A stretch of DNA of 64,000 nt from Asterochloris sp. CNOR1. Its lineage: Eukaryota; Chlorophyta; Trebouxiophyceae; Trebouxiales; Trebouxiaceae. Below the pieces are notes generated by a model. The model had not been told where the DNA came from. It saw nothing but the letters and a program-made list of their open reading frames with translations, and ran no database searches. Of this stretch, positions 1 through 53,500 are shown one piece after another; positions within the stretch are counted from its first letter, which is position 1, and the number at the start of each line of letters is the position of its first letter. Where the stretch lies: NCBI GenBank assembly GCA_963969365.1, contig OZ017754.1, forward strand, positions 1,550,001 through 1,614,000, written 5' to 3'. The position numbers and the translations under genes were made by a program.

Positions 1-545
1 GCATCTTCTTGGCCACCGTCTGGTTGATCAGGTTGTCTTCTGCCAGTAGCACGTTGCGCCCCTGCACAGTAGCACTCTCAGCGATAAAGGAGAAACTGCA
101 GCACTGCCTGGTTGCTTGAGTCGCCTTCGACCAGCAGCATGTTGCTTGCTCCTGCACAGGGGCTTTGATGGTGAGATGGGCGTACTGGCCAGCACTGTAT
201 GGGTACCAGTACTCTTTGGGCCGCGTGGGGCTCGCCAGCACATTGCACCCTAATACTATAGGACCACAGGCCTTGCGAAAAGAGTCCTGCAGCAGTTTCT
301 GACAGGTACTTCTGTCCTGTGCAGCAGCACAAGCGCCTCTGCACAGGTACTGGTAGTGAGAGGGTATGATGGTCAGCAGTATATCAGCCTCAGGAACTGG
401 GGCCGCATGTGGTCCGACAGCACATTTGTCCCCGAGCAGAGGGCACCCATCAGAGACTCAGCATGGGTATGCTGGTCTGTGCAAGCACTGGCGCGTGCAG
501 CAGGGGTCCCTTAGATCTGCCAGCAGCACATTGCGCCCCTGCACC
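1..545 (-). repeat. decayed copies of the receiver-domain exon start
   Basis: The last visible kinase exon starts at base 61 (minus) and encodes [15 protein letters not shown]. Its intron holds same-orientation decayed copies of that start at about 98-167, where the translation still reads [15 protein letters not shown], at about 217-253, and at about 508-545, where it reads RNVLLAD. Each lies directly after a ctgcag-like acceptor. They are interpreted as partial duplications of the exon edge. Confidence 0.7.
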
Positions 546-3500
546 AACAATCACAATATGGTCATTGCAGTGCATCATGGGACAGGGCAACACAAAAGTG
601 GACCTTGCAGCAGCAGCCTGAGAGTGTGCCTGACAGCCTTCAGCACCCTGCAGGGGCCCGCTGCATTGTGCTCTGCGCTGCCTTGCGGCAACAAAGGGTT
701 GATGTAAACAGAAGCGCAGTCCGCACAGATGACATGGTGTACTGCCCGCTGACCCACATGATGGACCTGCAGATGTGAGGTGTCCAGCTTTCCCCCTGTA
801 GAGTGCTGTCCTGCCCATCAATGCAAGCGCATCTCCTGTCATGTACAGGCAGCTTACCTGCAGGCATCAGGTGTCCAGCTTGTGCCGCTGTGTCGTCTTT
901 GTAGGGCACTGAAAACAGCCAAACATTATGCCGTTTCAATCCAGACCCACCTGCAGGGCTGAGGTGTCCAGCTTGCGTCGCCGCGCCTCCATTGAAGGGC
1001 GCTCCTGCTGCCGCCGCACAGATGCAGCCGGCGAGGGTGCTGGCACCATGGCTGTCAAGTCCTGCCGCAGGCAGGGCTCGGTGGCACTGAAGGACGAAGT
1101 GCGCCGCTGAGAGCCCAGCTCAGCGGGTAGTTCCTGCAGGGCCCACTGAACACCTGAGGGCCTGTCTGCTGGAGACGAAGGCGAGTTGCGACTGCCCAAG
1201 GGACTCAGCAGCAAGGCAGCCTCAACCCGCCCAAGCCTGCAAGGAAACCCTGCGATGCATGTAGGAAAGGGTCTTTGATGCCAGCACAGGCAAAGCAGAC
1301 CTGCGGCATGCAGGCGGAGCACAGCAGTGCAATGGGCATATGTAGAGCAGCGTGAAGGGCAGCAGCAGGCAGGCACACACAAGCACAAGTCTGCATGCAG
1401 GCGCAAACGACACAGAGTTTGGCCAGGCAGGAGAAGGGGGCGATGCTAGGCGCTGGCTTGGGCTGGTGTTGCTGCGGATGTTCTGGGGAGCTGCGTTGCT
1501 CCATCATGGAGCGCAGGCAGCACCGTGTGCTGCAGGGGTTGAGACAAGTGCAAGCAGCAGGGGCTGGCACAGTTGGGCAGGCTTGCTCTCTCTTTCCATG
1601 GCGGTGACAAGTGTTTGGTGGCAGGACTTGAAACTGGGCTTTCAAACAGTACGATGGCAAGGCATCAGATCTGGCTCAGCCAAGCGCTAATCATGGAATT
1701 ACTCCCCCAGAGGATGTTGGGGCATCCAGAGCTGTGATGAATACTGAGGCAAGTGCCGCATGCTCGGCGAACCAGTGTGCACATGCATATCTCCACATGC
1801 AGGAGGTGACATGCTCTGCTACAGCACGAATCAGGGCACCCAGCAGGGGTCGTGGTGCTTTCAGATGACAAAACAACACTGACAAGGGGGAGAGACCTCC
1901 TGTCCTACTCCTTGTGTCCCTTGCCAATGCTGACCTGAACCTTGACCTGCATCTCGGGCAGGGACTCTAAGGAGCCATGCGTGATGCCCGTCGCCAGAGC
2001 GCTGGTGCAGGGCGGAGGCCCTGGGGCTTGCACCTCCTGGTGGAGCCCTTTGGGCACCTCCTGCTCTCCTCGATGCACCAGCTGGGAGTGATGCTGCTGC
2101 TGCAGGCAGGAGGGACAGCATATGCTCACTGCAATGCTTATAGCCTCCTGCTCCCTCCCAAGCACCAGCTGCAATGAGGTTTGCTGCTGCATTGTGGAGG
2201 TCCACTGACTGAGCACCGATGCATAAAGCTGCGCTGGGGTTGCTGCAGCAGGCCAGGAAGATGGCAGACACTTGGTCAGACAGGGGCATGACTGGCCATC
2301 TCCCTCGCTGGCATGCCCCCATCTGACCACATGTCTGCCATCCCCCTATCAGGGATGAGACCAGACAGGCCACTGCAAGCATACGCTAGCCAGGGGATAA
2401 CGCACAAGACGACCGCATGCAGCATGGCAATGACCGTCAGGCACTGACAAGGGGCAGCAGGTGCTGGCATGCACGTGCCTAGTGGTGCAAGAGAAAGAGC
2501 CAAACAAGACGCACCTTCCGCAGCTGGTGCTGTTCTGCAGCAGACCGCTGCACGGCAGCATAGTGCGGCCCAAGCATCTCTGGGGGAAGGTACTCGGCTA
2601 GAGGCCCATTGCCGCTCATGCCTTCCTGCAAGATACTCCTATCCGAGTCTGCAGGCAGGCACGAGACTTCTCAAGAAAGCTGGGGGCATGATGCTGGACA
2701 TCCTCACGAGGGCTTGCAGCGACCCAGCTCTTGGTGTGCCCAGGCCCCACAATTTGGCAGAGCCACTGATAGCTGCCGCTCCCTCATGCCACAAAGCAGC
2801 CCTTGACGTGCAGTTGATGATCAGGGCGCCTTGCACTCAGGGTCCAGCACATGCATGGGCCCCATGTCTGTGTCAGCAGCAGCCTGGCAGCTCCCAAATC
2901 CCAACAGAGTCCAGCAAACCCGCTCCACCAGCAGCACCATGTAGAGGCTGGTGCGCATGCGCTCTCAACAATGCCAAAAGTGTTGAGGCTTACCAGAGTC
3001 CGGCACCCCGCCCTGCACGGGCTCCATGCTGAGACTGCTGCGCAGCAGGTCCCGGCTGATGCTGCGCCGCGGTACAGACAGGTCGTCAGGCTTGGCTGGC
3101 GTGCACAGTACAGCCCGCGCCACGGCAGCCCGCGCCTGGGAGGAGGTCCCTTGCTGCAAAGGCGTGGCGACCTGGGCTGCCTCGGCGGCGGCTGAGGCTG
3201 CTGCAGCAGCAGCATCTAACTGACCCTTATACGCTGCAAGGCGGATGGCCGCAATGTTGGCCGGCGCCTCAGGTGCGCTGCGCCTGCACAGCACCAGACT
3301 CACAATGAACACTCGCCACACAGGTGTGCAGAGGCGCCTCAGCAGCGCTGCTCCTGCACAGCCCAGCAGAGCCTGTCAGTATCTGCAGTGCGCCATCACT
3401 CTGCAAAACAAGGTGTGCTGCCATGCAGCTGGCCGCCATATTGACTGGCGCCTCAGGCAACAATGCAGCTCTACACATGAGATGTGGGAAGCATTGGTCA

Positions 3501-6500
3501 TGAAGGCATGCAGGGGCGCCTCAGGTGCGCCGCACCTGCACAGCCTGTCAGTGTTTGCAGTGCACATTCGATGAGCAGCAGATGCCCGCAAAGTGTGCTG
3601 TGCCTGCACAGCACCATGTAGTGTATGACTGGCTCAGGCACCACTCAAAAAACTCATACGAGCCAGGCAGCAAGGCAGCAGCGTGTCAGATTGCAGTCAG
3701 CCCCCTCAACCCCTCGATCCGCTCAGTGCCAGTGCCAAGACCATGATGGGGCCATGCAGCAGGGCAGCATGGTGCCCAGGTTGTACTCAGCCCCTCCAGC
3801 ATTTTGATGTCATGAACTGCAGCAGGGCGACTGCGTGCCCAGGACACACTGACCCCGGCTAGCACCACAGACTTGAAGGGGCCAGGCAGCGCGGCAATGA
3901 CGCTCACCGCCGGGGAGGCGACCGGTCCATGCTGGACTGGTGTGTCTGCTCAGGCTCAGACGTTGAGCGCCCCTGCATGCTCCCATCCTGACTGTGCCTC
4001 TCCTGCTGGGCCAGGGCTCCTCGCGTCAGCTGCTGCGAGCGGCGCACCTGGCTGCCCTGCGGCAAGGTGGGAGGCAATCAGGTTCAGTGGCAGGTTGACG
4101 CCTGACATTGAGCAGGGCGGTGGGAACAACATGTAGACTTCCAGCAGGCTGAACTCAAGCATGCTGCACCCGCTGCTATCACTCCAGGCAGCTTCTGCTG
4201 TAGTGGGGAGCTGCAGAGGAGCGCTCAGGGAGGGTGCAGGGGCTTGACGTCGGGAGAGCCCTCAGCAGAATAGCGGTGCTTTATGGCTACACCATACAAG
4301 ATGGCAGATGGGCACTCCATGCACTGCACACCCACTGGCCTGACCACGGCAACCCCCAGCAGGTCTCCAGAGCCAGAGTACAAACCTGCTGGTCCAGCCA
4401 CGTCCCAGAGCGCGCCAGCTGGTGAGACTGACGCCTGTACTGGTGGGGCCGGGTCACGGCGCGGTTCATGCGTCCAGGCAGGGTGGCTGCTTGGTCAAAG
4501 TCAGAGATGTGACCATCTGAGAAGGCATTCCGGCTGCCCCAGGAGGCAGTGCGTCGCAGGGTGATGGACCTGCAGGATGCATGAGAAGGAATCATGTAAG
4601 ACCTGCAGCCCTGCAAAGCATTTGATGTGCTGGTGTCATGTGTTTTGTATGTGTGGCCAGATTAGAGGTCATCAGAGCAGGCAGGCCTACGGTGCTGGTA
4701 CACAGTGCACCGCAGGCTGATGAGTCTCCAGTAAGCATGAGATTTGCGGCTAGTCTGGTCGCTGGACTGGTACAGGCTGACAGGTTTGCAGCCACTCAGG
4801 GCTCTATGGCCGGGTGCAAGGCTCAATCACAGAAGGGCAGTGCAGCATAGGCTGATGGACCTGTAAAGGACAGAAGATACCATCAAGCAAGAGATGCCAT
4901 GCCTGCCCTAGGAAGCAGTGCCTGTGGTGCCTTGGCCGCCTCAGCCCCTGCCTGTGATGGGTGTGAGACACTTGTGCAGCTTGGCATGCCATCCATGTAT
5001 GCTTGAAGCATCCAGAGCATACGGCAAAGGACGCGCGCTTGTCTTTCTGATATTTACTTTCTGGATGGAACTCCGGCGGCAGCAGCAGCAATACCTTCAA
5101 TGGAGGGCTGCTCCAAATTGCCTGTTGAAGGTCAATTGCGCGCCAAGATGTGCAGTGCAGGCAGCTACTGCCAGCCACGCCTGGGCCAGAGGCAGCCTAC
5201 TTGCAACTGCATCCTTCATGGGCAGCCAAACACTCTCCTACCTTCTGGGTGAGTGCTCCGGCAGCAAAAGTGGCACCGTGAACCAGAAGGTGCTGCCGGT
5301 GTTGAGTTTGGACATGGCTCCAATGTGACCGCCCAGGACGGCCACCTGCTTGGAGCAGATGCTGAGCCCGAGGCCTGTGCCACCCCGGCTGCGGGGACGG
5401 CGCATCTCATCCTCTGTTCCCTGCAGCATTGAGTAGCAGCAGGGTGGAGCAACACCTGTTCCAGTAAAGCAAGTTTGCACTGGCATTTGCTTCCAAGGAG
5501 CAGCAACTGTTTGGCTCCAGGCAGCAGATTGTGCTTGGCAAGCTGCACAGCTACAGTCGGTGTCCCAACAGTTCAGGCAGATGCACACCTGCGTGATTGC
5601 AGCTGGACAGCAGCGCGACCCTTGGCGGCAGGCATGCATAGTGAGGGCCTCAGCTGACAACCCAGATCTGACAGATCTGAATGTCCTGAAGATACTATGC
5701 CCTGCCTCCAGCAGTGATCAGGTTCTGCAGGTGCAAAGCAGCTGGAACGGCCTGCAGTTCTTACCTGCACATAGTCCTTGAACAGGCTGCGCAGGCCAGC
5801 CTCCCCAATGCCGCAGCCCGAGTCTGAAACCTCAAATACCAGCCACTGCTGCTGCTGGCGCTCTCCAGGGCTGGCTTTCCGGCGGTCGGTGCTGCTGTGG
5901 GTGCTGCTGCTGCTGGTGCCCCGCTGGGAGCTGGGGGGCTGTGTGGCCACAGCATTAAACCACCCTCGCCCCAGAGGCTCCACCTTGCACTCCATACCCC
6001 GCCCTAAGGTCGCCTTCCTCGTGGTGGACATGGAAGTGCCTGCAGTTGACATGTCAGGCACATGCTTGAGGGGATTGCCCTGTGAAGGGGGATTGGTACA
6101 ACAAACCACGATATGGGCCCAGTGGCGCAGACTGATGGTGGGTATTATTGCAGCGTGGCAGACGCTTCGCCAGGCAGCTTGTTGGGCACCTGCTGCAGCA
6201 GGCAAGGTATGAAGGATCTGTTGCGTGTGGGGACACAGCAGGCAGCATGGGGGCCAGCCAGAATGAGGGAGCAGTGTTGGGGCAGGGCAGTGCAGCGCCC
6301 AGGAGGTCCTGCACAGGAGCATTTGCCAGCAGGCTGGGGAGATATGCTCTCTGACGTGGCAAGCTGCAGGCTGTATTGCAAACATGCAAGAAGATCACTG
6401 GCCACTGACAGACACAGGCCCCTCCAAGGTGCCGGAAGGCAAGCAGGCATTGGGGTCACAGGCCCTGCTGGCAGCAAATTTGCAACTCTGTGCATGCAGC

Positions 6501-9500
6501 ACAGCCCACAGCAGGACGCCAACCCTCGGCTGACAGGATGCTGACCTCTGCGCTGGGTTCTTGATACATCTGCTGGGCTGACACAGGACTTGCGGCAGCA
6601 CACAAATGCCTGGAGCTCTATGTACCTCAGGTGCAGCATTGGATCCATCCTGCAAAAAACTTACAAGAGCTACCCACCTCTGCCAGGCAGCCGTCCCTCA
6701 GCCACCAGAGCGCTGACTGCAGCGATGGAGGCTGCATCCATGACGTCTGCCGGGCTGGAGAATGACTTGCGGCAGGGCACAGAGGACTGGCGCTCTTCAG
6801 AGACATCGGGTGCAGAGTTGGAGGGGCGAGCTCGGTCAACATCTGACTCGCTGGCATCCTCCAGGTCATCCTCGTCCTCTTCTGTGAAGGGCTCAACAGC
6901 CTGGGCTGAGAAGGGCGTCTTTCCGTTACACACTGAGGGGGCCACCTCCTGCAGCAGACTAGGGCGCTGAGACATGCAAAGGCGTGCGGTGGGAAGCGTC
7001 CTACCCCCTAGTGCACGCTGGCCGCCTCAAGACCATGAGGTTGAGGCATCTAAAGGCATGGGATGGCAATGTGGGCTTGTGGTAGCAGTTTAGCGTGGCC
7101 ACCTCCTGTACATGACTGGAGCGAGCAAGAGTGCTGGTAGGCTGCGCAGAGGCAGCTGATCTGGCTGCAAGGTGGAACAGGGCCAGGTTTGCTCAGCTGC
7201 AGGTGGCAGCACAGCTTACCCCGCAATGCTGGACCAGACACAGGTTGCACCAGCATGCACAGTTCCTTCTGGCTGCCACATGTGCAGCGGCTTACTGTAA
7301 GTTGCAAACTATGCCCTGGTTGCCTACTTCCAATTGCAGCAGAGCAGAACTGAATTACCCACCTCAAAGCTGGTCGTTTGCAGTTTTTTGGGAGGTACAG
7401 AGCTGTCCAGGGACTTCTTGTGGGCCATTGCACTGCGTAGGAGCCCATCTGACAGGGCTCGCCGCTGCTCCTTCGCTTCCTGCGGTGATGTCACGCAACA
7501 TAACCTCGGAAAGCTGCAGGCAGGAGCGCGGAGAAAGCAACACAGAATAAGGGCTGGCTGCGACCTCCTGGCCCTGCTCATCAGCATGCCGCAGCAAGCT
7601 GGTGCTGTCAGGCGTACACCTGAGTGCCCACAGGATGCAAAGCATTATCTCACCCATACTGTGCAGGCTGCCCCACCTGTTATCAAAGCAGCAGACAGCA
7701 GACCCCAGACCAGTGTGCAGCTTGCCACGACAAAACAGTCACACCTGCGACGCCTCAGCAACCTTGGCCCCATGAGACAGGCCATTGGTCTGCGAGTGGG
7801 CCAGAGCTGCCTGCAACTTGCTGCCTGGCATCTCTTCACCGGCTGGCGAGGCACCGTCCGCTGACAGGGCAGCCTCTGATGCATTTGTGGATGCCTGCCT
7901 TGACGCAATCCGCTCTGCTCTTGCTGCCTCCGGACAAGAGAATGCAGACCCAGGCCCCTGCGTCTGCATGACATGTGACGATATCAGCTTTTGGCTTTCC
8001 AGAGCTGCCTCATGAGGGCACAGCATTCAGGGTACAAAAGTCCACAGTACTCTGCAAACGGCAAGCCTGCATACAAGGCCCCATAATGCCACTATCTTGA
8101 GCCTGTCAGTCGCAGAAGCAACATGGGTTTGCGTGCACAATGCTGATGACTTCATACATGACAGCAGGCCAGGGTGGGATGTGCAGCAGTGAGCACCAGA
8201 TCACACATGTCGAAATACTGCAGCAAGCAGCCATACAGGAGCATACTTCCTGGTGCAGTGGGCCACCCTGTGCAGGTGAAGGAGCAGCTGGAGGTGCAGG
8301 GGCATGACTTGACCCTGAGACGCCCTGACTCTCAAGGCTGTACTAAGCGCACCTTACGGTGAAGCTGGCTGGCCTATGCTTGCACAGAATACAGGGACAA
8401 ACATTGCAGGATGCATGCACAAAACACAGAGACAAGCACTGCACGATTGCTCAGGGCAGAGCACTTGCGGGTGAGCCTGGCTGGTCTACATTGGTGAGGA
8501 TCTAGGGGCATGCATTACGAATTAGGCCTCTGACACATGCCGCCTGGTGAGGCTGCTTGCCTTGTGCAGAGGATCATGGCTTGCACCAGCAAAACTCTGG
8601 ACAGGCGGACTGCAGCACACCTCCTGGTAAGGCTGCTTGGCCTGTGAAGGTGCTGAGCCCCTCAGGTGCCCGTCACAGCTATTGGCTAAGGCAGCTGGCT
8701 CCCGAAAGAAAGCGTCTAGGGAGTGCTCTGAGTGTCCTCCAGAAGACCTGAATTCAAAGAAGTGACTGGGATTGCTGAATCACCATACAGGCACAGCAGC
8801 AATTCGGCCAGGTCATGATGGCTGCACGAGCCTGCAGGCTTGGCCCAAGGCAGCAAGGACCGGGCATGCTTGCTTTGAGCCAAGCCATATTAAACATCGC
8901 CCTCAAGAGCAGCTCTAAAAGACATCTGCAAAGCTGACAATTCCCTATTTGGGCACCAACATGAGCAAGTGTCCTCTGAAGGGACTTCTGACAAGCTAAG
9001 CACAGGTCTAGGGGTGGGTGCTCCTAGCGACGGCCTCAGATGAGCTGGGTGCAACACAAAGTGAGATCTTGAAAGGTCTACCTCGAAGAAGTCACGGATG
9101 AGCGCCTCGAGCCCGCACCGCCCTTGAGCAGGGCTGCTGCTGCCCTGCTCTGTGCAGCTTTGCTCACAACGGGCTGCTGCTGCGACACTGGCTGCTGCTG
9201 CATCTGGGGCAGGCGTTCGCTGACAGCAATGAACCCCTGCCGCCGCCCCTGCAGGAAGGATTTCACATTGGTGGGGCTGCACAGGAGTGTGACCCTGCAC
9301 AGAGCACGGCTGCGGCAATGCCTGCAGCAACCCTGGTGGACAGCAGCTCAGGCTCGGTGGCCCCACACCCACACTGGGGCAGCAAGAGTGGGAGCACCTG
9401 CAGTGTCCCAACTGCAGCACTGACCTGCAGGGGCGGCGGCGGGGCCTGACGCTGCTGCTGCTGCCGCTCAGCTGCAGAGGGAGCCCCATTTGCGGGCCGG

Positions 9501-12500
9501 GGCCCCAGGCCTGGCTGGACGCTGCTGGTCTGTGAGCCGCCCTGACAAGGCGCGGTGCCGCCCGCAAATGTGGTGAGGTCGTGGGGGGTGGGCCTGTAGT
9601 GGGGCCCTGCCACTCGCACACGCAGCGAAATGGTGCCCTCCTTGGTGAATTTGGCTGCGGGGCAACAGGAGTTTGGTGGGAGTCACAAGGGAGTCTGGCC
9701 AGATATCAAGCGAGCACAACTAAAACGCGATCCTTGATGTGAGCCTGGCTGCAAGGCAAGGTGCAGAGCAGAGACAGCTGGGCTGCAGGTGCATGGTGAG
9801 AGTCATTTTTGGGCAGGGGAGGGACCCTGCAGTCCATGTTTTGCACCAGCTGAAGGGTTGGCATGAGGGTGGGCTAGCGCTTGCAGAGCAACGGCAGCAG
9901 GGCTGCAGGTGTACCGAGGGCGGTCCAGTTTGCACATGGCTGCAAGGGCATCAGAGCTTTTTACTGAGTCATGGAGAATTACAGGAGCACTGACAAGCTT
10001 GCAGTCTTTTGTGAGCTTGGCTGCATGAAGGAAGGGTAGAAGCCGTTGTGGGCCAGCTGCGCAATACATAAGGGACACACGGGAGGCCTGCAGGTGCACC
10101 CCAGGGACCTCCTGTCACTCCACTCTGACTTTGACTGCAAGGCAAACTACAAGTATGATGAGGCTGTAAGGCTGCCAGCATGGTGGCTCAAGGTAGGCGT
10201 CCAGAGCTGCACAGCCAGTGCAGCCAGCATGTGGCATGATGACCAAGGCAGCGCTATATGATGCATCAGCAGCTCGGGACCTGTTACAGGGGGCCCTGAC
10301 CATCACAGGGGCTTTTCTTAGCGCAGAGAAGGCACAAAGGCAAGCAGCTGCAGCTGTGGTGCAGCAAGCGAAAGTCTGACAGGTTGTGGCAGCCCTACGC
10401 ACCATCTCGGACTGAGCAGCTCGGTGAATCAGCTTGGGCACCCAGCGTGCAGGCATGGCAGGCGGCTGCAGCTGTGGTACGGCAGCTGCAGCTGTGCTAC
10501 ACTGGCTTGAGCTGAGCACAGGCCTGGGCACTGAGCCAGCCAGGGCTCAACTTCACAAGCAAGACGGACAAGGCAGGCAGCCAAGTGCGAGAGATGATGC
10601 GACAGTCTGGTACAGCCCCACCAGAGGTTGGCAGCTCACCTGCGTTGGTGTAGAGGTTCAAAAGCACGCCCTTAAGCCTGTCTGGGTCCCCCATGACAAA
10701 CTCAGGCACAGCTTCAGTGCTGGGGCGCAGGAGCTTCACATCCGACTCCCGCCCAATCATGGCCTCAATGATGCAGTGAATGTCATTCACCAGCTCCTGC
10801 AGTGTAGCATGGAGCTTTGCACCACAGCCTGGCGGCTCCTGCACGTCAGTAGCCGTCACTATGCAGCAAAGACAATGGACCAAGTCCTGCAGTACGCCAG
10901 GCCCATCTGGAATGCTGCAGCACACAATTATGGTTTGCTGTCAGGCGTCCTTGCCTCAAAAAGGGCGCTAGACAGTGACGACATGTTTGCCCAGATGCTG
11001 TCACTGTAGCTGTGCACAGAAGCAAGCTTGAAACACTGAAATGGCCAACACACGCTATCAGTTCGTTTTCAGATATCTCCTTATCGTGCAGGACCTCCCA
11101 GGATATGTCACTAGCCAGCACAGAGATTGCAGACTTCACATCCCTGCTGGCTACAGCACACACAGCCTGACCCTGTTGTTGATCTTGGCCCACACCCCGT
11201 CAGCTGGTATTGCTACTTGCGATGCCAGCACACAGCCCGACCTTGATGTTGATTTCACTCCGCACTACGTCCAGCTGCTTTCCTGCCTCCATCTTGAAGA
11301 AGTCCAGGAAGTTGGACACCGTGCTCAGCAGGATGCTGCCACTGACGCAGATGGTCTTGGCCAGCTCCCGCTGCTCATCCTGCACAGAGATGGGCCAGCA
11401 TCATACAGTGCTTGGCAGATTTCAGGAGGTGGCAGCACGCTGCCGCTGACACATGGGTCCTGGTCAACACTCTGCGCAGGTGGCCTATGGCATGTGGGAC
11501 TGCTTCACTCACTCAATCAACAGGCGGGCAGCAGGTTTTCTCAGGCACAATCCTGCAACATGCGCGCCACTGACCACCATGCAGTCATGAGTGGTGTCCA
11601 ACCCCCTCTGAAGTCTGAGGTCAACTGCACGGAGCACCATGAGACAGCAGCATGCTGCCTGGCAGCAGGCTGGGGAGGACGGGGGAGAACAGCACAAGCG
11701 GGCCTGCCGTCATGATCATGCCAGGCACCCGCACATTTGCAGAAAGTGAGGGACATCACGTCAGTGCCCCTTGCTAGCAGTATCTTTCATTGAAGCAACA
11801 CATGCTGCCAGCCGATCATCCACCAGGAGGGCAGCATGTCCAGGTAACCTGGTGCAAGAGGCATAGCCAGCCATCTCGGGTAAAGACGGGGAGGCGCATG
11901 CAGCAAGTGCAGGTTGACAGCACGACCTTTCTGATAATCTTCTTGTCAAGTCCCAAAAAAACCCCCAATTTCAGACCACAATCCACTCAGGGGCTCACCT
12001 GCAGCGGCGTCTCCAGCAGCATCTCAGCCGAGGCAAGGCACCCGTTCAGGGGCGTGCGCACTTCGTGGCACATCAGGGACATGAACTCCGACTTGGCCTC
12101 GTTGGCAGCCTTCTCGCGGGCAACAGTGAGAGCCCTGTGGGCTGCCTGAGCTTGGGCTGCCGCGAGCTGCTGCTGCACGGTGGCCCGCGCCTGGGCCTCC
12201 TGCAGCTCCTTCTCAGCAGCTGCGCTGGCCAGCTTGTGGTTGGCAAACATCTGCCTGCAGATCAACACAACCGTAAACTTAGCAAGATATGTTCCTGCAG
12301 AAGCACCTCAGCGTGGCAATGGTCCAGGTTCCTCGGTGGCTGCACTAGCCAGCTGATTGATGACAGCATCCTGTCTTGCAGAAGCAAAGGCCGCCTTGCT
12401 CAGCACAGCCTGTGCTCGGAGAGGAATCCTGCATCCTGCAGCCTAAGTTCAGCAGCTGCAATGCCAACCAGCTTGTGACTGGCTGACATCTGCCTGCATG

Positions 12501-15159
12501 CCAGCAGAAACAGCAAAGTCGTCAGCTAGCAGGGACCAGTCTAGCATGAGAGATTGAGCTGTGACTGCACTCAGGGCTGTGAGCACTGGATGAGCTGCTG
12601 AGCCTTCCTGTAAGCATGCTATCAGTCCTGCAAAAAGGAAGTGGCAGGCTATCCTGCCTTCACATCATATTTGATGCTGCGTCAGCTCATCAGCGGCTGG
12701 TTGTCTGCGCTGACAGCCTGCGCGCTGAAGCACAGCCAGGTCATCCAGCCTCAGCTGCACAGGCGTCTGCCAGGAAGGGAGATGAGCAATTTGATCACAG
12801 GGCAATGGCAGCTGTGAACCTCATCATCAACGACAGGCTGCAATGACAGGCTGCCCGCCTGCAGCTGCCAGCGGCAGCATCCCTCTGCAGCAGTTCTCCA
12901 GTGCAGCTCCAGCCTCACCTGCGCCAGCTGTCCGCCAAGAAGGACATGAGGGACCCCACCGCCCATGACACCGTCAGGTGCACCTCTGCATCCGCAGGCA
13001 GCAGCGCCCGCGTGCGCGGCCAGGCAAAGACCAGCACCAAGGGCAGCGTGAGGATGACTGTGCCCACCAGCCAACGGATTTTGAGAAAGGTGGAGGTGCA
13101 CATCAGGAACATGGCTGCGAAGACATAGTCCTGGGCATTGCTGGGGCGTAGCGTGGCCAGCAGATTACAGATGGCCAGGGCCATGATGCCTGACAGCAGC
13201 AGCTCCTCCTGTGGAGCAGCGAGAGACATTGATGGTGAGACAGCATGTGCAGCAATGGTTTTGAGGCGGCCAGATGGCCAGTGCATCAAGCCTGACAGCA
13301 TCACATCCCACTGCTTGTTGCAGAAGCAGTGTGTTGAAGTGAATGTTTCAGCACATACATAGAATGCAGATGGCTATGGACATGCCCAGAGGCAGTAGCT
13401 CAGGAGCAGAATGGTGGCTGGGCGATGAGGTTGCTGTGCAGGCTGCAGAAGGCCCAAGTCATGACGCCCAGCTGTTGCACTGGAATGTAAATGATGAGAT
13501 TCATCTGCCGTAGGCACAGCTTGGTGTCTTGAGCATGCTGGGAACTCCGGTCCAGTCACTAGTATCAAGGCTCCAGGTCATCCAGATCAGCCTCAATGCT
13601 GAACATCATGCATCACTGCACCTCTGCCCTACTGGAGCCACATCGCTGCTGAGGAGATCCATCCACATTGTGCCAGGCTTCACATCCAGAATTATCACCA
13701 CAGAAACAGCATAGGCTCCAAATTGTGGAACTAAACATGTGAGGCTCTATGCATGTACCACATAACAGCAAGCTTCTGTGGTGGTAAAATAGCCCAGCAC
13801 AAGTGGCCAAAGAGTGGACTGCATCACTGCCGCAAGGTGCCACACAGCTGCCCCAGGACTGTTGAAAGAAGACTATGCAGGCGATGGCACACTGCATTCA
13901 CCTGTCTGGCTGCGCCATTCCCCAGGCGCCGAGACCTCCAGTTGAGCAGGCCCAGGAACACGTAGAGGAAGGCCATGTTCAGCAGCTGGGGCATTAGACT
14001 GCTGAGCACGGAGCCCGCCTCAGACGTCTCGCTAGCCTTGTTTTTCACATATTTGGCCAGCAGTCTGAAGAGGTAGCACAGCACGTCAAAGCACATGATG
14101 AACATGAGCACGTAGCGTCGGCGCACTGCCACATTGTTGAGGAACTCAGCCTCCAGCTCTGCAGGCAGCAGGGGCAAAAAGATCAGCCTGCATGTGTTCG
14201 ATGCTGCCTGGGGCAGAGGAAACAGCAATTGAGCTTGCATGATGTTCAGCAGCCTGTATTGTTGAGTAATCAGCCTGCAGCAGCAGGGACCTGGAGTCTG
14301 ACGGGGCCAGATGTGCCGTCCAAGCCAGCATCACGTCCCATGGAATGCAGCCCAAGCCTTTGAGGAAGGGCAGCCTTTGGTTCTGCAGGCGATCTGGGCA
14401 GCCTGCTTGTTTGTGTGCAAGCCTGTGGCCAGGGGAACAGTTGAGGCTGCATGATGCTGTAATGCATCATAACCGCTTATGTCGATGCACATGGCATGAT
14501 GCAGCTGTGCAGGCATCAGCAACGTATAGCTCTGGTGCTGATCCAGCTTCACATATACAACACTGATGCGTGCAGTCAGCATGCAAATCAAGCCTGTGCC
14601 AGCGCGCCTCATTGCAATCAGATCGGCAGCCGCATGACTTGCGCATAGCAGCAGCTGCATGACACTATGCATCATGGCTCGCTGTGTGCAACAGAGCACC
14701 TTCAGATTCTGTGGCCGGCTAGGCATCAAATGCACCCAGCGTGTCCGGATTTAGAGGCACACGTGTTGCTGAGCCTCATCATGCAGAGGCATGACCAGAC
14801 TCAGCATGGCAGCCTGCATATGATGGCGTGGTCTGCCCAATGCTGCAGCCGGATCTGGCCGTCTGCGTGACGTCAGACGTGACCTCAGCGAAGATTCGCA
14901 GGTGATCTCGCCGAACGGCCATACCAATGGAAGGCCAGCGCTTACTTGGCTCTCTGAAGCTGAGGGTGACGGGGTGCATCTCCAGTGCCATAGCCTCCTT
15001 CCCAAGAAATGCCAGGGCAGCGGCCTTGCGCCGCTCTTCAGCTGTGCGCAGCCCTGCCACTGTCTGCGGCTGGCCCGTGAAGGTGAGGGAGCCTTTCGCT
15101 TGCAGCCACTGAATGACCGCTGCAGGGCCAGCCACAGGGAGGTCTGGCGGCAAGTGCAT
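1..15159 (-). CDS. membrane-bound hybrid histidine kinase (HisKA-HATPase-REC), partial at left edge
   Basis: Sensor kinase that should autophosphorylate on His and pass phosphate to its own receiver domain; the signal is unknown. Read on the minus strand, a first exon with ATG at 15159 is followed by hydrophobic multi-pass exons at 14158-13902 and 13208-12919. A coiled coil plus HisKA exon lies at 12254-11999, with the H-box [13 protein letters not shown]. HisKA helix 2 is at 11379-11242. The N box ([13 protein letters not shown]) is split between 10796-10640 and 9654-9425. The G1 box (VSDSGCGIG) ends near 5765 and the G2 box ([10 protein letters not shown]) is at 5420-5242. The last visible exon, 61-1, starts a receiver domain ([13 protein letters not shown]), so the gene continues off the left edge. 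Low-complexity exons at roughly 8.0, 7.5 and 6.9 kb lie between the N and G1 boxes, and more linker exons between 4.6 and 1.0 kb. No CHASE or ethylene-binding motif was seen. The exact joins of the linker exons and the first-to-second exon join are unresolved. Confidence 0.82.
11158..11213 (-). repeat. decayed copy of the 3' edge of the HisKA helix-2 exon
   Basis: The exon ending at 11242 (minus) is followed in its intron by a same-orientation copy of its last roughly 40 coding bases plus the donor region. On the plus strand both copies begin with a shared cagcacacag block and run in parallel, the intronic one with scattered substitutions. Confidence 0.6.
12325..12500 (-). repeat. two decayed copies of the 5' edge of the HisKA exon
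   Basis: The exon starting at 12254 (minus) encodes [14 protein letters not shown]. Upstream of it in the intron are two same-orientation copies, about 12325-12380 and 12447-12500. The second retains the plus-strand blocks ccagcttgtg and acatctgcctgca found at the true acceptor. Confidence 0.65.
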
Positions 15160-34371: not shown

Positions 34372-34439
34372 GGCACCAGCTGAGGAGGGTGAAGCTGAGA
34401 TGTCTGCCTTCCAAGGCAGTGACAATGAATGATTGCATC

Positions 34440-35010: not shown

Positions 35011-35435
35011 TGCACGGAGTTTGAGTGCATGTTGCATGGACCGGAGCGTGACCAATGCTGCATGGTTTTGCACCACCAACGCTGCATGGTTATACACACC
35101 AAGCTCTAGCCGCGACGGAAAGGTGCATCGCTTTCTCAAACGGCGGGTCAACGGCCAAAGCTGCGTGGCCTGCTGTCGAGCTCAGGCTTTACAATTATCT
35201 GTAGTGACTGTGTTGTTCCTTTCAACCAAAGTCACAGATTCCCTTGCCGACATGCACTGCCAGATGCTGAGCGGCAGGTGTTCGATTCCCACCAGGCCCC
35301 TCCTGCGGACAGCAGGGCCCTGCAGGTGCCGTGGCTGCATCCACTAGTCGGTTGCTGTATGCCTGCCCTGCCCTGCCCTTATTACATTCACTGGTTGCTG
35401 TTTCTGCCTGCAGGCGCCAGTCCCAGCATGTGGCA

Positions 35436-45714: not shown

Positions 45715-48700
45715 TGGATGCAGCGTCAGCGCCACGCATTGGCGTGGTCCGCGATGCCTATGCAATGTACAACCAGACGCCCAAGGTCCTGTCGCAGGCG
45801 GTTGCCTCCATTGGCACGGGCAAGGCAGCAGTGCTGGCAGAGGTAGCTGAGAACCCCCACAGGCTGGTGGTGGATGAGTATGTACATGATGAGGACTTGG
45901 ACCAGTTCTTGCTCCAGGGGGTCAGCACTGACCTTTTCAGGTGAACACAGGGTGTTTGGGGTGTTGTTGACAGAGTCAGCCAAAGCCCCCAAGGCCGGGT
46001 CGGTGCCCATCAATTTGCACCGCAGGTGGACTGGTGGGGTGGCGTCGGTGGGTTAATTGAGAGCCCCACAGGCTGCAGCGGTCGAGTGCATCCATGCTGA
46101 GCAGCCTGCTCTAGGAGCTCAGCACTGATCTGTCCAGGCATGCAGTCAGGTAGGGCATTGACACCAAAGGCCAGATGACAGCTCAGAAGTACTTGCTCCA
46201 GGACAAGTGCTCATGTCAGAAAGCGCAGAGTTTGCCTGCTTTCACAGCTCACTGACTGCCTGTCTGCAGATTTGCTGTAGCAAACTGATAGCCAGTGTCT
46301 GCATCTACCTATGGCAGGCTGCTGTTCTGCATTAGCACTAACCAACCGTGGGCAGGCAATCCACCTGACAGCCTTGGCCAGGCACATAACTGCCAGGCTG
46401 TCCAGCGCAGCCTGCCTGTCTTCCGTGACTGAGCAGCTTGCTGAAGCGGACGTGTATCATGCAAGCTCACCTCACGAAGGAGGCCCTGCAGGCCATTTTC
46501 TGCCCTCCCAGCCTGCCCACAGCCTGAGCGGCTCCTGGCAAATTGCCCAGCATCCGGCAACTGCTGGCCACATTCAGCTTCACACTCTCACCAGACTGTG
46601 CCCTCGCCGCCCTGCAGGCTGCTGAAGTGTGAGGGCACTCCCAACTGTCCTGGTCCCATCTGACCGCTGTGCCCAAGAAGAACGTGCTGCCTGCACATTT
46701 CTTCCCTGGAACAGATTGTAGACTGCCTCTGGTCCCGCTCTGCGGGCTGCTGAAGTGCTAGCGCACCATCCACCCCATGCTACCTGGCCCCTCTTTGCAC
46801 AAAATGCAAAGATGTGAGCTGCTCACCTTCTGCCCTCACCTCTTGTTGCAGATACCTCATTAATGAGGTGCGAGGGCATCTGCACAGCCCTGGTCCCTGA
46901 CCTGGCAGCTATCCTCAGCCACAGCCTGCGACACACAGCCATCAATGCCCTGCCTGTCCTGCAGGCTGCTGAAGCGCGAGGGCATTCGAACTGCCCTGGT
47001 CCCCGACCTAGCCGCCGTGCCAAAGTACAACAGCTGCCAGGCGGTGCAGCGCGGCCTGCGCCAGAACACCAATGAGATCCTCATGGTTGCCCCCACAGCC
47101 TTTGGCTTTAACTCTGAGGCTGCCGAGGACAACTACTTCATGCACGACACCCTCAACGGGGGAAAGGGCACTGCCCCAGGGACAGAGGTCACCAACCGGG
47201 TACTGCAGGAGTTCTCGGGGCTCTACCGCGAGCTGACAGAGGTGGGGGTGGCGGGGCAGGGGGGAATGGGGGGCGCCCAGGGGTGGGGGGGTTTACACTT
47301 AGCTAGAGGCAAGGCCTGACAGGCAGCCCCACAAGCATGTCCCTGTCAGCTATATAGGGTCCGGTGATGCAGGTTGCATGCTGATGTTCTGACATGGCTA
47401 GCCAGCAATTGGCACAGACATTCAATGCACAAAAGGGGTTGAGAAGGCCCTGAAGGAGTGGAAGGGAAGTGCAAGCTGCACGGCGGTCACCTACCTGGTG
47501 CTGCAGGAGCTCTTGAGGCTGTACTGAGAACTCAAACAGGTTGGTGCAGGTGACTTCACAAAGGGGGGCGGTTCGACGCTGCTATGCTGGCGGGATTGCA
47601 GAGGTTGAAGGCAGAACAGGGCAGAGCAGCAGCCCAGGGCAACTGCCACGCTCAGAACCTCTTCAGCCTGGAGCCTCCTTGCTTTTGTCCCTCTTCCCTT
47701 GCTACTTGAGTGGCACCCACTGCAGCATGCAGTGGCATCAGCAGGTGCCATCTTCTGGTCTGCATAGGAGCCCTCTTGTGGGTGGCACACTCTGGCCCTG
47801 CGCAGCAGGTCAGCTGGTATCAGCCGCCCTGCAGATGCTGTCATCAAGACTTTCTTGTATTCTGATCTGCCGTAGCAGGATCGGCAGCCATCAGCTAACG
47901 CCCATCAGCTTGCCAGCTGACTCACTGCTTGCCCTGTACTGCAGGTGCTGTGAAGCGCAATATGTCATGTCACGACCTGGTTGCACAGAAACACACACTT
48001 CCTGCTGCTCAGAATTGCGCCAGGAGTGTTCAGCTGCTGTGCAGGTGGCTGGCCACAGGTTCACTTCTTCTGCCCCAGGCACAGCAGCTGTGTATCTCAA
48101 AGCATGGCCTGCAGGTGGCCACTCAGGGGGACCAACCATTTCTGTGTGTGTCTTCTGCCACACCAGGTGACCTCTGCTCCATCGGGTGACTTTGCTCTGC
48201 GGCTGCAGGTGGCCGGCGTCAAGGTTGACTTGTTCTGCCACAACCTCTTCCATGGCACCCCCGATGCGGTGTTCCCCAACAACTGGTTCTCCACCCACCC
48301 CGCTGCCGAGGCCCAGGGCTCCCTGCAGCGCTCCACGCTGGTGCTGTACCCCATGAAGCACGCCAGCCGCCGACATGAGAGGCGGGACCAGATCATCGCT
48401 GTGCTGCGCAACCGGGGCTACTCCCACCTGTTTGACATGTGAGCCATGTGTCAGGGAATGATGTGTGTGGCATTGTTGCCCTTGCATGTGGTGCTGGGAT
48501 GCTGTCTGCTAAAGGGCAGGCCGGTTCAGGTGTAAGAAACCAAAGTGAACTCTGCTACCTGATCTGTGTTTAGCATGCGAAGCCCTGGGAGGGCACTGTT
48601 CCTGTTGTTTCTCCCCCCCCAAAACTGCTACCTGCTGCTCACGCCAAGCGCATGTAACAATTCTGTCTGGGAGGACTGGGCGGCCCCGCTGGTCAACTTG

Positions 48701-50151
48701 CTCACGTGAGCTGATGGCCAAGTTTCGTTGCTTTCCTGGAGCTCCCATTGAGCTACTCTCCTGCATACCTCCTGCCTACTACCTGCAAGGTCATTGTTTG
48801 ATGATGCACAGCACTTACTGCAGAGCACTGGTGCCATGGTGCTGTCATGGTGCTGTTTGCCTTCAAGTGCCTTGCTGCTGTCCGCAAGGCCCCTGCCAAG
48901 GTGGCTCAGCACTCCAGACACTTGCCTTTGCAAGCGCAGGAGTGTCACAACAGACAGCAAGCAAAGTCATGCTGCCTGCCAGGTCCTTTGACAATTCTTG
49001 ACAGCATGGCTTTCATTGATACTCCATCTCCTGATATCTCCCTGCTGGCTGCCAGGTCCTATGCCGAGCGCGCACAGCACTTCCTTGAGGGCACCGGTGC
49101 TATGGTGCCTGACCGGGTGAATGGTGTGGTTTACTGCTCCCTCTCAGAGCGTGCGGAGGAGATGCTGGCCCGCCAGTGGGCCAGCGAATTGGGCTACAAG
49201 GATGTTGTCACCTTCAGGTAGCAGCAGGCAGCATAGCGCATGGCTCTCGGCCTTGGCTGTTGCAAGCATGGGCTGTGTTTTTCATCATTAGTGCTCTTGC
49301 AGCGACCACCCTCATGCACCAAGCCAGACACGAGGTTGCTGCACACAGACAGGGCGGTGCAACAGGTCACACAAGGCTGCCACTGCTGCGCGCACAGCTG
49401 CACACCTGTGACGGTTTCCCTACCTGGAATAGCTTGTAGGCATTTGTGCAGCTGCCGTTTCATCCTCTTGTCTCTGGCGGCACCAGTTCAACGGCCCATG
49501 GTCTCCTGCAGGTCGCGTGATGCCCGTGGCAAATGTGTTTATCACACCAACGTGATGATGTCTGTTGGCACCGATGTGGCAGTAATCTGCCTGGCATCAC
49601 TGGCCAGCGATGCCCAGCGTCGTGCAGTCCTGGCCAAGCTGGAGGAGCACCACGAGGTGGAAGCTGTACATACTGTTGACAGCTTTGACTCTTTGGGCTG
49701 AGCAGCGCCCTGTGCGCTTGTCAAGAGTAGAGCTGGTGGGCTGCTCATTGCCAAGCCTTTCAGATCTCCAAGTGCCGTATGCCCCACCCTGAGCTGCATA
49801 CTAGTCCACCTGACAGCCGTTCCTAGCAGCCGCCATGGTCTCTGCCATGTCTCTGCATCGCTGCAAAGTGTTGCAGCAACAAAACTTGCAGAGCCAAACC
49901 TCTTCACATGGCTTCAGGTTGTGGACATCACACTAGAGCAGATGGATGCCATGTGTGGCAATGTGATCGAGCTGGAGGACGGCAGGGGCCTGCCGGTGCT
50001 GGCCATGTCCACCCAGGCGTATAATGCATTCACCCCCGACCAGAAGAAGATTTTGCTGAAGCATGTGGCTGCGCTGCACCATGCTCCCATAGACACGCTT
50101 GAACGCGTGGGTGGGGGCAGTGTGCGATGTACCATTGGAGAGCTGTTTTGA
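45715..50151 (+). CDS. CtlX-type amidinotransferase-fold hydrolase (arginine-deiminase superfamily)
   Basis: Guanidino-group-modifying enzyme fold; the bacterial CtlX branch acts on citrulline or arginine-like substrates, so the substrate here is inferred only to family level. Exons 45715-45940, 46965-47241, 48209-48438, 49056-49217, 49512-49656 and 49918-50151 agree in phase. Family motifs in order: MVAPTAFGFNSEAAEDNYF, FHGTPDAVFPNNWFSTH (catalytic Asp region), LVLYPMKHASRRHERR, FLEGTGAMVPDR, VYHTNVMMSVG (catalytic His) and GGGSVRCTIGELF (catalytic Cys near the C-terminus). All key residues are present, so the enzyme looks active. About 125 residues precede the domain (VVRDAYAMYNQTPKVL onward); they are helical and not part of the bacterial enzyme. 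The first exon begins mid-codon, so one or more upstream exons are missing from this model. Confidence 0.88.
46053..46920 (+). repeat. copies of both flanking exon edges in the first amidinotransferase intron
   Basis: About 46053-46139 repeats the 3' edge of the exon ending at 45940 (agccccacaggctg, then tcagcactga.ct). Three copies of the start of the next exon (46965, LLKREGIRTALVPDL) follow, at about 46611-46692, 46733-46790 and 46848-46920. The first shares an unbroken gcaggctgctgaag with the true edge. Confidence 0.75.
47455..47545 (+). repeat. decayed copy of the 3' edge of the second amidinotransferase exon
   Basis: The exon ending at 47241 encodes NRVLQEFSGLYRELTE with donor gtgggg. 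The intron repeats this about 300 bases on: it retains gtgctgcaggagct and the positions of GLYRELTE, now with a stop, followed by a gttggtg donor-like word. Confidence 0.7.
48035..48125 (+). repeat. two short copies of an amidinotransferase exon start
   Basis: The exon start at 48209 (ctgcaggtggccggcgtc) is anticipated at about 48040 (gtgcaggtggctggccac) and about 48110 (ctgcaggtggccactcag). Both are short, so chance in ctgcag-rich sequence is possible. Confidence 0.45.
48775..48995 (+). repeat. decayed copies of the exon carrying the EGTGAM motif
   Basis: The exon at 49056 encodes SYAERAQHFLEGTGAMV. At about 48790-48850 the intron repeats it as gcacagcacttactgcag, agcactggtgccatggtgc, which keeps the AQH and STGAMV codons. 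A second, short copy of the exon start (ctgccaggtcctttgac) lies at about 48972-48995. Confidence 0.7.
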
Positions 50152-50535
50152 GGCGGCAGTTCCCATCGAACTGCTGCACACTGGTCTGAGAGTCTTGGGC
50201 AGACGCCGTAGTTTGCATCAATGCTAGAAGTGTATCTCCTTGAACTCCTTCTCAAGTTACATGCAAGTGAATCTACATAGTCTAGTGCACAGCTGCCCAA
50301 GGTGTTGGTGGTGTATACAAGCAGCATGATGAGCAGATTTTGGTGCGTTCTAAATTCAAATGTTCCCTAATTGAAAAGGGAGCCAGCAGGGTTGAGAACA
50401 GCACGGTGCATTAGCAACTACCAATTTAGATTGAGCAAAACTTGTGCCACATGGACACGGGAAGAGCAGTGTACACCTTTGAACGCGAAACACACTAAAA
50501 AGAGGCTGGCGTGCTGATGCTAGCATGCTGAGATA
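50152..50535. other. convergent intergenic region
   Basis: 384 bases between the amidinotransferase stop (plus) and the LamG-protein stop (minus). Relatively AT-richer than the surroundings, as expected for two 3' UTRs; no gene or structured element recognised. Confidence 0.4.
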
Positions 50536-53500
50536 CTAGACACGGCCATGCATTGCTGCGGCAATCCCCTGCTTGCTGTTGGTGTGGGCGTCGATGAAAA
50601 GATTCACCTTATCATCTGGCTTGTCGCCCAGGGGGATGTCATGCATCTGCACTGCAGCAGGTATCTTGGCCGAACCACGTGGCTTCCCAAACTCCTCCTG
50701 AAGCCGATGTTTGCGGTTGAGGCCTCTCCGGCGATTGTTCACCTGCAGCCAGGGGTGTAAACCGAGGGCTGCAAAGGGATTTCAGGCGGCAAGCAAAAGG
50801 CATATTGAGACTGCAGACAGAGGCTGAGATGGGATTATAAGGAAGCTGACAGCAGCAGCAGAAGGCGTTGAGGGCCCTGAATGCAGTGGGAGCATGCCTT
50901 GCTGACAATAAGGCACAAAGCAGCGGACACCAGAAAACTTTGACAGGCATGTACCAACTGCCAAGCATGGTCATGCAGCATTCTGAATGCAACATCTCTC
51001 TTTCCAGGTGCCACAGCTTGACAGTTGGGTGTTGGTTTGCTTGTGCAGGCTGCTCACCTTGACAGCAGCAAAGACAAGGAGGGACAGCAGGGCGACGACT
51101 GCCACAGCAACGCCCGCACCAATTCCAGCCTTGGCCCCTGAGCTGAGCGTGCTACTCTGCGATTGTGTGCTGCCAGGGCCGCCCTCTGTGCTTATGCCTG
51201 ACAGACTGTCCTGGGGCGGTGGCTGCTGCTCGCCTCCTGCAGTAGCATTGAGAGAGCATGTCATCAACAAACAGACGCACCAGGCCACAGCCTCATGTTG
51301 GGGCAGCTGCTGTTGACTGTCTGCAGCTGGATTGATGAGGTTGGCCTTCAAGCAGAATGATACCAGCTTGCAGCAGTGATGAGGCACGCCGCAGCAAGCT
51401 CTCCAGCAGCTGCTGCTGCTCACTGCCTGCAACAGCGCTGACCCTCAGCATGAGGTTGTTATAGGACACAGCCTGTTGCAAATGGAGCAGTGCCAGGGGC
51501 CAGTGTAGCAGGTGAGGCAGCTGTCTGCATAGAATTGGGCAAGCCTGCAGCAAGGCAGCATTGTCAGACCAGCGGCCATGGGCGGCGGCTGCCTTAACAT
51601 GCTCTCCAGATCTGTCTCTCTCTACCGAGTGATCACATGAGGACGGGGTGGCTTGTTGGGCATGGCGCACTCACTGTCAGGCAGCAATGCCAGCATACAT
51701 TGATAGTTGTATTCACATCTGTTGGGTACCCACCCGAGGACTGTGCTGAGACAGGGCCAGCAGGAGCTGGTTGGCTGCCTGTAGCAGCCTTGATGGCATC
51801 TGTCAGCTGCTGCTCGACACTGGCAGCTGGAGAGCTAGCTGATGAGGCGTTGCGGTTGACCAGGGGTGGTGCCAGCAGCTGCTCAATGCTGGGCAGCGGC
51901 GCTTGCAGGTTGGCAGGGGTTGTGCTGAAGGCCCCGGGCCCTTGCACCTGCTCATACAGAGCCTGGACCTGCAGCGCATTGCAGCCCCTTGTAAGCACTC
52001 ATATGCGCCTCTCTATGCTTGAGGGCTGGCATAGTCATTTGGATGGATCCGGCCTGGCCTGGTGGCCGGCTCCCACAGGTCTGCGCCTGCACAGCATGAT
52101 TGGCCCAGCCTGGTGCATCCAATGTATCCTCGCTGCCTTGGATGCATGTGAAACATGGCATTTGGCTGGCAGCTGGGAAGAGCACCATCAACCATCACTT
52201 TGCAAGGGATTTTTGAAGCAGCATCACGGCCCAGTCTGCCAGCATGACATCAGAAGCTTGATTGCCAGAAGCCATGCAGAAGCCATGCGACACACTGGGA
52301 TGTAACCCACCCTGACAGCCCAAACAGTCAGTGCTCCCCATCCATTCAAACATGGGCATGGACATGCAAAGACTTGTTGAAGCATTACAAGCTGCCAGCA
52401 GACCTCGTCCAACAGCAGGGCAGCATGTTCCAGTAGCGCGATGCAAATTGCATGCCCAGCCAAACCTTGTAGAGGCAGGAGGCGCGTGCAGCAAGTGCAG
52501 GTTGGCAGCACAACCTTGCTGGGGCGGCAGCGGTGAGTGGCATGTGCACTGACTGCAAGACTCCCATGAACAGCATGCGCAGTGCACACCGTGGACCACA
52601 GAAGCCAGCAAGGTTGCTGGGCTCTCAACACAACAAGCGTGTGATATGTGGTACCCGCTGCCACTGCAGCCAGTAGGAGCAGGCAGCACATGCCTGCAGC
52701 ATGCACAGCATGCACGCTGCCCCTACTGCAGGCAATTGATGCAGGCAGAGTAGCAACTTGCTGCCCCATCTCACGTCTGCAGGCACCAGCGACTGGTTGA
52801 AAAAGGTCAGCGCAGCCAGGGTGCCGTCAAAGAACCTGTCCGGTGCGCTATCTGCCCGCCCACACAGGTGCATGCTGTTGTTGATGAGCAGGGGGTCGCC
52901 GCCTGGGGTCTGCAGCTGACGCAGGTCTGTGACTGCATGGGTGATCTGGGCAGCCTGCTGGCCGTCCAGGTAGAGCACCCAGCCCTGCAGCAGCAGACAG
53001 CAGAGTTCTGTGACTGCGTGGGTGACATGGGCAGCCTGCTCGCCCTCCGGTTGGAGGCCCCGGCCTGCTGCAGCACGACACAGCTACACGTGCAAGCTGC
53101 AGACCACATGACAATGCATGCCTGATCGTCCACTGACAAATCTCAATGCTATAGCAGAGCAGAGCCAGCTCTGTGCACCTACACTGCATTGTCAGGTGAC
53201 CCTGTCTAAGACTGAGAATGGCAAGGGTGCAGCACCTGCTGATGTTCGTGCAGCAATACATTTTGCAGCACTAGAAGGCAGCGCTACACAGCACTTCCTC
53301 AAGTAGCAAAGTTTGCATTGCTGGGCAGTGTGAATGGAAATAAGCCTTCAGGCTGACCGCCACCAGCCCCAAGGCTGGGTCTGCTTGCCTATAGGCTTGC
53401 AGCTGTGCATGGCCGTGAGCAGTATTCCTGCAGCACGAGAAGGCAGGGCCAGCAAGCAGCGGCCAGCCTTCTCAGATGCAATGATGGGGATGCATGGGCA

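Follow-up and report, generated by a model that had tools for sequence, protein, structure and literature searches.

Decayed copies of exon edges in introns of the green alga Asterochloris sp. CNOR1 as probable remains of small tandem duplications across splice sites

How do introns grow, and can traces of that growth still be read in them? The question is raised by a 64,000-nucleotide stretch of Asterochloris sp. CNOR1 DNA (positions 1550001-1614000 of contig 9; hereafter, the window), whose introns contain partly decayed, same-orientation copies of the edges of adjacent exons, which we call echoes. Intron lengthening is usually put down to transposons or to small insertions and deletions (indels) that go unseen. 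A preliminary description of the window had proposed that local tandem duplications repeatedly run across splice sites, that the introns grow in this way and that the spare copies then decay. Our analysis bears this proposal out by controls, by the polarity of the copies, by the steps between them and by simulation: with a probability of roughly 85%, the echoes are what is left of second copies, each made by a small local tandem duplication that crossed one splice site.

The genome comprises 56.4 Mb in 21 contigs, and our sample of it amounted to 314 kb, namely the window, 200 kb of contig C1 (guanine plus cytosine (GC) content, 58%) and 50 kb of contig C12. For the related Asterochloris glomerata, the available parts of the genome report give 56 Mb, GC 56-62%, ~9 introns per gene and ~5% repeats (PMC6652019). 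A two-strand gene model was self-trained on the 314 kb, with penalties against the over-splitting of exons set before any exon-edge test, and converged on the donor CAG/GTGAGC and the acceptor CTGCAG/G. Introns of <80 or >2500 bases, and exons of <45 bases or with a coding score <6, were removed before edges were counted; after these fixed filters, 399 exons and 339 introns remained. Neighbouring genes get fused by the finder, and the gene names and splits used here rest on homology and judgement.

Without any annotation, the window yielded 21 same-strand local matches of at least 40 bits at spacings of 50-400 bp, and the two 100-kb halves of the C1 block yielded 10 and 13; at spacings <3.2 kb, none was seen in inverted orientation in these three sequences, nor in a dinucleotide shuffle made once of each. 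A tiled scan of the 314 kb (10065 scan windows) returned 221 forward matches, 5 reverse-complement matches and 0 matches in shuffled sequence. In the exon-edge test, 60-base edges taken from both ends of every exon were aligned to the intron next to them at a strict score of at least 34, and the exon's own adjacent intron held a same-strand copy at 17/339 donor edges and 17/339 acceptor edges. The controls at this score were empty on each side (0/1695 shuffles, 0/1017 other introns, 0/339 reverse complements), and so were the wrong-side introns, those at the exon's other edge (0/276 and 0/268). Thus, the excess of matches to the gene's own flanking edges at the correct end, on which the preliminary description depended, amounts to 34/678 edges against 0 in every control, including 0/544 on the wrong side. 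The model was then frozen and applied to 30 kb of a fourth contig, contig 5, where copies were found at 2/72 edges, with 0/568 in shuffled or other introns, 0/72 in reverse complements and 0/64 on the wrong side. Clearly, the decayed local direct duplications are real, and they are not confined to the window, as copies also lie on C1, C12 and contig 5.

A variant of the test with 120-base edges found 37 copies in 35 introns, 19 of them donor-side and 18 acceptor-side. Thirteen were in the window (64 introns), 11 in C12 (51 introns) and 13 in C1 (224 introns); the regions outside the window give the fairer estimate of density, because the window was chosen for the pattern. With a score tuned to older copies (676 edges), own introns exceeded other introns by 13-16% of edges at thresholds 55-80, and the wrong side by 8-13% at thresholds 65-90. 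The share of edges with a copy beyond chance expectation is therefore roughly 10-15%, and varies with the threshold and the control chosen; for hidden weak echoes under score 85, the excess was not significant (P 0.18). Summed best-copy offsets came to 6785 of 158140 intron bases (4.3%, a lower bound), so that the wording of the preliminary description, that introns are built from such copies, was overstated. Echo-bearing introns were longer (median, 546 vs. 319 bases), partly because long introns give more to search.

In 31/37 copies, the match extended to 10 bases or less from the splice site. The splice signal had been described as often kept, and the GT or AG dinucleotide was indeed present in 15/23 copies that come within 2 bases of the edge, and lost in the rest. 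A spacing of 80-220 bp, likewise given in the preliminary description, held for 23/37 copies, but the full range was 25-597 bp, with 11/37 at 200 bp or more. Multiple copies occurred at 13/37 edges, although the maximum was three and not four. The steps within arrays tended to be regular (for example, 148 + 152; 110 + 113; 195 + 183 + 219; 99 + 88 + 111): in a test of 13 arrays, taking the first two steps of each, these steps were within 1.3-fold of each other in 8/13 arrays, against a permutation mean of 3.8 (P 0.004). The clearest case in the window is the oxononanoate-synthase-like exon 16317-16533, with copies at offsets 148 and 300. No echo abutted the far intron end (0/37; the nearest was ~119 bases off). 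Introns echoing both neighbouring exons do exist (2/35), but neither is in the window, whose intron 26174-27366 echoes both only in a scan that also scores intron bases. As for the claim of at least seven affected genes, the window's 13 copies fall in five gene models that represent six genes, one model being fused, and a seventh gene is only likely (31108-31150 paired with 31201-31243).

A tandem duplication across one splice site would account for these features as follows. The unit, mostly ~60-350 bp, would start inside an exon, cross one splice site and end in the neighbouring intron. The exon could be completed only with the outer copy of its edge, so that splice site would stay in use and the inner copy would become intron; the intron would grow by one unit, and the protein would remain unchanged. 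The inner copy would then decay neutrally while the exon copy was held by selection, and renewed duplication of some edges would produce arrays of two or three echoes, most with near-constant steps. The duplications, which we infer to come from break repair or slippage, probably hit anywhere in a gene, and those at exon edges would stay recognisable longest, one copy being frozen. Such a unit predicts a strict side rule: running from an exon into the next intron, it leaves a complete exon on the first copy only, with the echo downstream in that intron, and the mirror image applies to acceptors.

Beyond the copied exon edge, residual similarity persisted in the intron flanks (n = 34, three of the 37 echoes having too short a flank): the mean score was 18.6 vs. 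14.2, and scores of at least 24 occurred in 6/34 vs. 0/168. Identity was.72 over the final 20 bases of the exon and.37 immediately beyond the splice signal, a fall that is expected because the exon part has one decaying lineage and the intron part has two. We considered copying that stops at the splice site, since the naive tandem expectation for the flank was 42 as against the 18.6 observed, but rejected it, as the fall is expected once the detection step is simulated. Overall, the similarity profile resembled simulated tandem duplication at ~0.25-0.35 substitutions per site, and differences by codon position were.168/.143/.254, compared with.164/.170/.248 simulated at 0.25 substitutions per site; these simulations covered donor edges only, with unit lengths and indel rates of our own choosing. 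The decay was one-sided: in the same columns of 24 pairs, echoes differed from each other by.282/.208/.323 at the three codon positions and from the exon by.202/.113/.228. Echo-echo divergence above exon-echo divergence is expected, because the exon is a frozen reference.

Could the pattern have arisen in another way? CAG and CTGCAG words abound in the genome, as if composition might generate the matches, and an assembly artefact would be another trivial source, but we give such explanations practically no weight. The shuffle, other-intron, reverse-complement and wrong-side controls, all at zero, rule out an origin in composition or CAG repeats and contradict the composition-only alternative that the preliminary description had named, while an assembly artefact is at odds with a divergence from the parent of 15-28% in 24/37 copies and with copies found on four contigs. 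Spaced copying, in which an exon patch would be copied nearby during break repair with no tandem structure, is very improbable. It would suit the position of most echoes, tens to hundreds of bases from the edge with few abutting it, and the mostly weak flanks (above the 95th percentile of shuffled flanks in 9/34); however, it sits badly with the absence of wrong-side copies, even though 11/37 spacings reach 200 bp, and with the near-constant steps in most arrays, and weak flanks are in any case expected of tandem duplication after simulated ascertainment. Nor does it seem much more probable that the copies persist because they function as alternative exons or as decoys for splicing, a use the preliminary description had suggested. 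The retained GT or AG dinucleotides, the rarity of in-frame stops (2/371 codons in ungapped copies) and the short exons that the gene finder placed inside echoes (16170-16181, 17002-17067, 46618-46628 and 46852-46867) speak for it. Against it, a neutral simulation gave 4.4 expected stops vs. 2 (P 0.17), differences at codon positions 1 and 2 were about those expected for one neutral lineage, and the relatives' proteins were without the insertions in the two genes compared; codon-position and stop-codon tests saw no coding constraint on echo copies, and the splice-dinucleotide pattern, too, fits neutral decay. The predicted exon 17002-17067 is 66 bases long, has an open frame and splice sites, lies within an echo and is absent from the solved relative; judged by its sequence, it is possibly a nascent exon.

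A further alternative, unlikely in our view though the least so of those considered here, is that exon edges are preferred targets, with breakpoints clustering at splice sites, for example via CTGCAG, and introns growing mainly from exon edges. The 118 local pairs comprised 54 exon-intron and 36 intron-intron pairs, the rest being of mixed classes, and at scores of at least 50 the exon-intron pairs prevailed by 22 to 3, two of the 3 belonging to the array at 34.5 kb. Moreover, CTGCAG is the commonest 6-mer in the 314 kb, and a young 79-bp tandem pair carries TGCAGC at both unit ends. Yet selection holds the exon copy, which keeps exon-intron pairs recognisable for longer than intron-intron pairs, and random tandem duplication with a non-decaying exon copy gives about the observed excess. 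The exon-intron/intron-intron ratios, for all pairs and for those scoring at least 50, were 1.5 and 7.3 in the data, and 1.33 and 2.6 (age 0.2) or 2.97 and 11.4 (age 0.25) in simulation, so that 7.3 is bracketed by the simulated values; CTGCAG is merely 1.34 times its trinucleotide expectation in the 314 kb. There is thus no need for a special status of exon edges, as implied in the preliminary description, although no single age reproduces both ratios exactly. The 79-bp pair (locus L017, ~2562-2729) is 93% identical, and its TGCAGC ends suggest microhomology at the breakpoints. In the window, CTGCAG occurs 253 times, with 139 expected from dinucleotide shuffles.

The gene models were compared with homologues in three echo-bearing genes, and the parent edges were confirmed there. 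Junctions 17192/16533 and 16317/15959 of the oxononanoate-synthase-like gene were gapless against the best solved relative, as was trehalose-phosphate synthase junction 24625/25288, and an alignment of the DDAH-type (dimethylarginine-hydrolase) protein with six algal proteins revealed no insertion at its junctions; among the named matches of this protein, Trebouxia was the closest (61% identity), followed by Myrmecia, Coccomyxa, Micractinium and Chlorella. Several points weigh against tandem duplication across splice sites, or against the models on which it rests. The exon edges are predictions of a self-trained gene finder, the homology check covered these three genes, and trehalose-phosphate synthase junction 23637/24407 has 8 extra residues, which means that the model is wrong there. 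The own-side excess over the wrong side disappears at the two lowest thresholds of the older-copy score, and with this more sensitive score the wrong side lies slightly above unrelated introns (P 0.011). Six of the 37 copies leave a gap of over 10 bases to the splice site, and 5/13 arrays are irregular (for example, 184 then 68). The observed matches average 46, shorter than in the simulations (58 at age 0.25, 52 at age 0.35), and the echo-echo differences show an unexplained dip at codon position 2 (.208 vs..282 and.323). Finally, the age estimates disagree: the 54/36 pair ratio gives ~0.2 substitutions per site, the flanks 0.25-0.35, and a deconvolution of lengths and divergences mostly 0.4 or more.

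Few of the copies are young: only 6/118 local pairs were at least 88% identical over at least 40 bases, and two of the six were in the array at 34.5 kb. A constant rate of birth was rejected, as uniform ages give an excess of young copies (log-likelihood -118.3 vs. -98.2 for free ages; -123.0 vs. -93.8 with more indels), these simulations too being of donor edges, and the free-age fit itself being unstable, since one old bin takes nearly the whole weight. The lack of young copies would possibly be explained by a past burst or by fixation under weak selection, and we infer that it reflects a past episode of relaxed selection or high rate; this is unproven, and a dated burst is not claimed. More tentatively still, one could suppose that most intron sequence is the remains of successive tandem duplications crossing or near exon edges, mostly from one past episode, a generalisation we find doubtful. 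If it were true, the echoes at the strict threshold would represent what can still be seen of several hundred older events spread over the 678 edges, as suggested by the unstable age fit, and frozen exon edges would let intron growth be dated genome-wide.

Table 1. Echoes and their parent exons in the window (positions are those of the window; spacings and offsets in bases).
Position	Strand	Feature	Remark
2994-3283	-	Parent exon of a histidine-kinase gene; its 5' edge is the copied one	HisKA in other exons of that model
3417-3457	-	Echo of 3233-3273, spacing 184	Score 42
3515-3544	-	Second histidine-kinase-exon echo, of 3263-3292, spacing 252	Local match scans
6566-6619	-	Echo of 6743-6796 (exon 6678-6948), spacing 177, ends 65 bases before donor edge	Score 43
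12431-12493	-	Echo of 5' edge 12195-12254 (exon 11999-12254, HisKA region), acceptor AG kept	
13271-13303	-	Echo of 13168-13201 (exon 12919-13208)	Score 39
16317-16533	-	Parent exon, oxononanoate-synthase-like gene, 3' edge copied twice	
16170-16230	-	First echo of 16317-16378, donor GT kept, offset 148	
16013-16062	-	Second echo of exon 16317-16533 edge, offset 300, steps 148/152	
17192-17394	-	Parent exon, oxononanoate-synthase-like gene	Junction to 16533 gapless in best solved relative
17089-17144	-	Echo of 17194-17249, spacing 105	Score 47
16982-17028	-	Second echo of exon 17192-17394 edge (matches 17173-17218), overlaps predicted exon 17002-17067	
24708-24759	+	Echo of 24570-24621 (exon 24407-24625, trehalose-phosphate synthase)	
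26328-26353	+	Echo of 26144-26169 (exon 25990-26173, trehalose-phosphate synthase gene)	Score 37
27198-27237	+	Echo of 27356-27395 (acceptor plus 5' edge, exon 27367-27489)	Score 40
31201-31243	+	Copy paired with 31108-31150 (predicted exon 31102-31180, weakly modelled gene); either may be parent	
37215-37246	+	Echo of 37298-37328 (exon 37294-37533, PAP_fibrillin gene)	
46965-47241	+	Parent exon, DDAH_eukar gene, both edges copied	Junctions confirmed by six algal proteins
46618-46691	+	Echo of 46965-47038, acceptor CTGCAG kept, offset 347	
46864-46909	+	Echo of 46970-47015, offset 106	
46390-46415	+	Weaker third DDAH-exon echo, matches 47034-47059, offset 644	
47485-47532	+	Echo of 47187-47234, the 3' edge of DDAH exon 46965-47241	Score 46
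48806-48842	+	Echo of 49072-49108 (exon 49056-49217)	Score 44
52990-53065	-	Echo of 52912-52984, 5 bases from working acceptor, an almost unspaced tandem pair	

Other repeats were also present in the window. The array at 34475-34963 consists of ~150-bp units with relatives, 67-83% identical, on contigs 12, 16, 11 and 1, several of which lie within ~1 kb of a contig end (the start of C1 and C16; the end of C1 and C12); it is probably a subtelomeric repeat with internal copies. At 35554-35925, tandem repeats within predicted exon 35414-36110 have steps of 75 and 228, both multiples of 3, in a repetitive coding region. A 146-bp dispersed repeat (11790-11933 and 52377-52521; 77% identical, 40.6 kb apart) was the stronger of two non-local matches within the window.

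How do the echoes compare with known systems? Unlike introner or transposon insertions, the two echo loci searched genome-wide each matched only themselves, in a search that skips very common words, and unlike duplicated alternative exons, echoes show no coding constraint on both copies, the dip at codon position 2 aside. A study of intragenic duplications that included exon-intron structure reportedly dealt with duplicated exons and created introns, and not with decayed arrays of edge copies. Single cases of duplication across a splice site are known from the available parts of PMC4974935 and of a review (PMC3443670). In potato, the gene for an RNA-dependent RNA polymerase contains a tandem duplication that spans the junction between intron 1 and exon 2, with most splicing signals inherited from the parent structure, as here; there, as far as the available text goes, one recent event made a new intron (PMC4974935), whereas here existing introns gained length, many genes are affected, some events were repeated, and what remains are old, decayed copies. 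The Rogers model of intron gain by tandem genomic duplication of an exonic AGGT, with Hellsten's ATP2A1 test, is similar in that a small tandem duplication is absorbed by the spliceosome and the protein is unchanged (described in available parts of PMC3443670 and PMC4974935). Reasoning from that model as there described, a new intron should begin with an echo of the next exon and finish with one of the previous exon, whereas our echoes derive from the exon edge beside them, none of the 37 abuts the opposite end of its intron, and a new intron need not form. A general source of small tandem duplications is offered by Pol alpha-primase fill-in during break repair, and patch-mediated duplication in rice is cited in the same paper, the available parts of which treat insertions <100 bp and not splice sites, while our units are mostly ~60-350 bp (PMC8355091). 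Among the matches listed, no title or abstract beginning of the open-licence literature dealt with intron growth through exon-edge copies that decay. The novelty claimed in the preliminary description thus does not extend to single intron-exon boundary duplications, which are published (PMC4974935, in its available part); as far as searched, what is new is the frequency, the decayed arrays and the use as a clock.

Taken together, the most suitable reading of the pattern is that small tandem duplication is widespread and that frozen exon edges make it visible. Tandem duplication spanning a splice site leaves readable traces at about 1 in 7-10 exon edges above chance in this alga, and since one copy is held by selection, exon edges serve as references that show duplications too old to be seen inside introns. 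The own-edge test is applicable to any annotated genome, and could tell whether duplication-driven intron growth is general or lineage-specific, and whether it comes in bursts.

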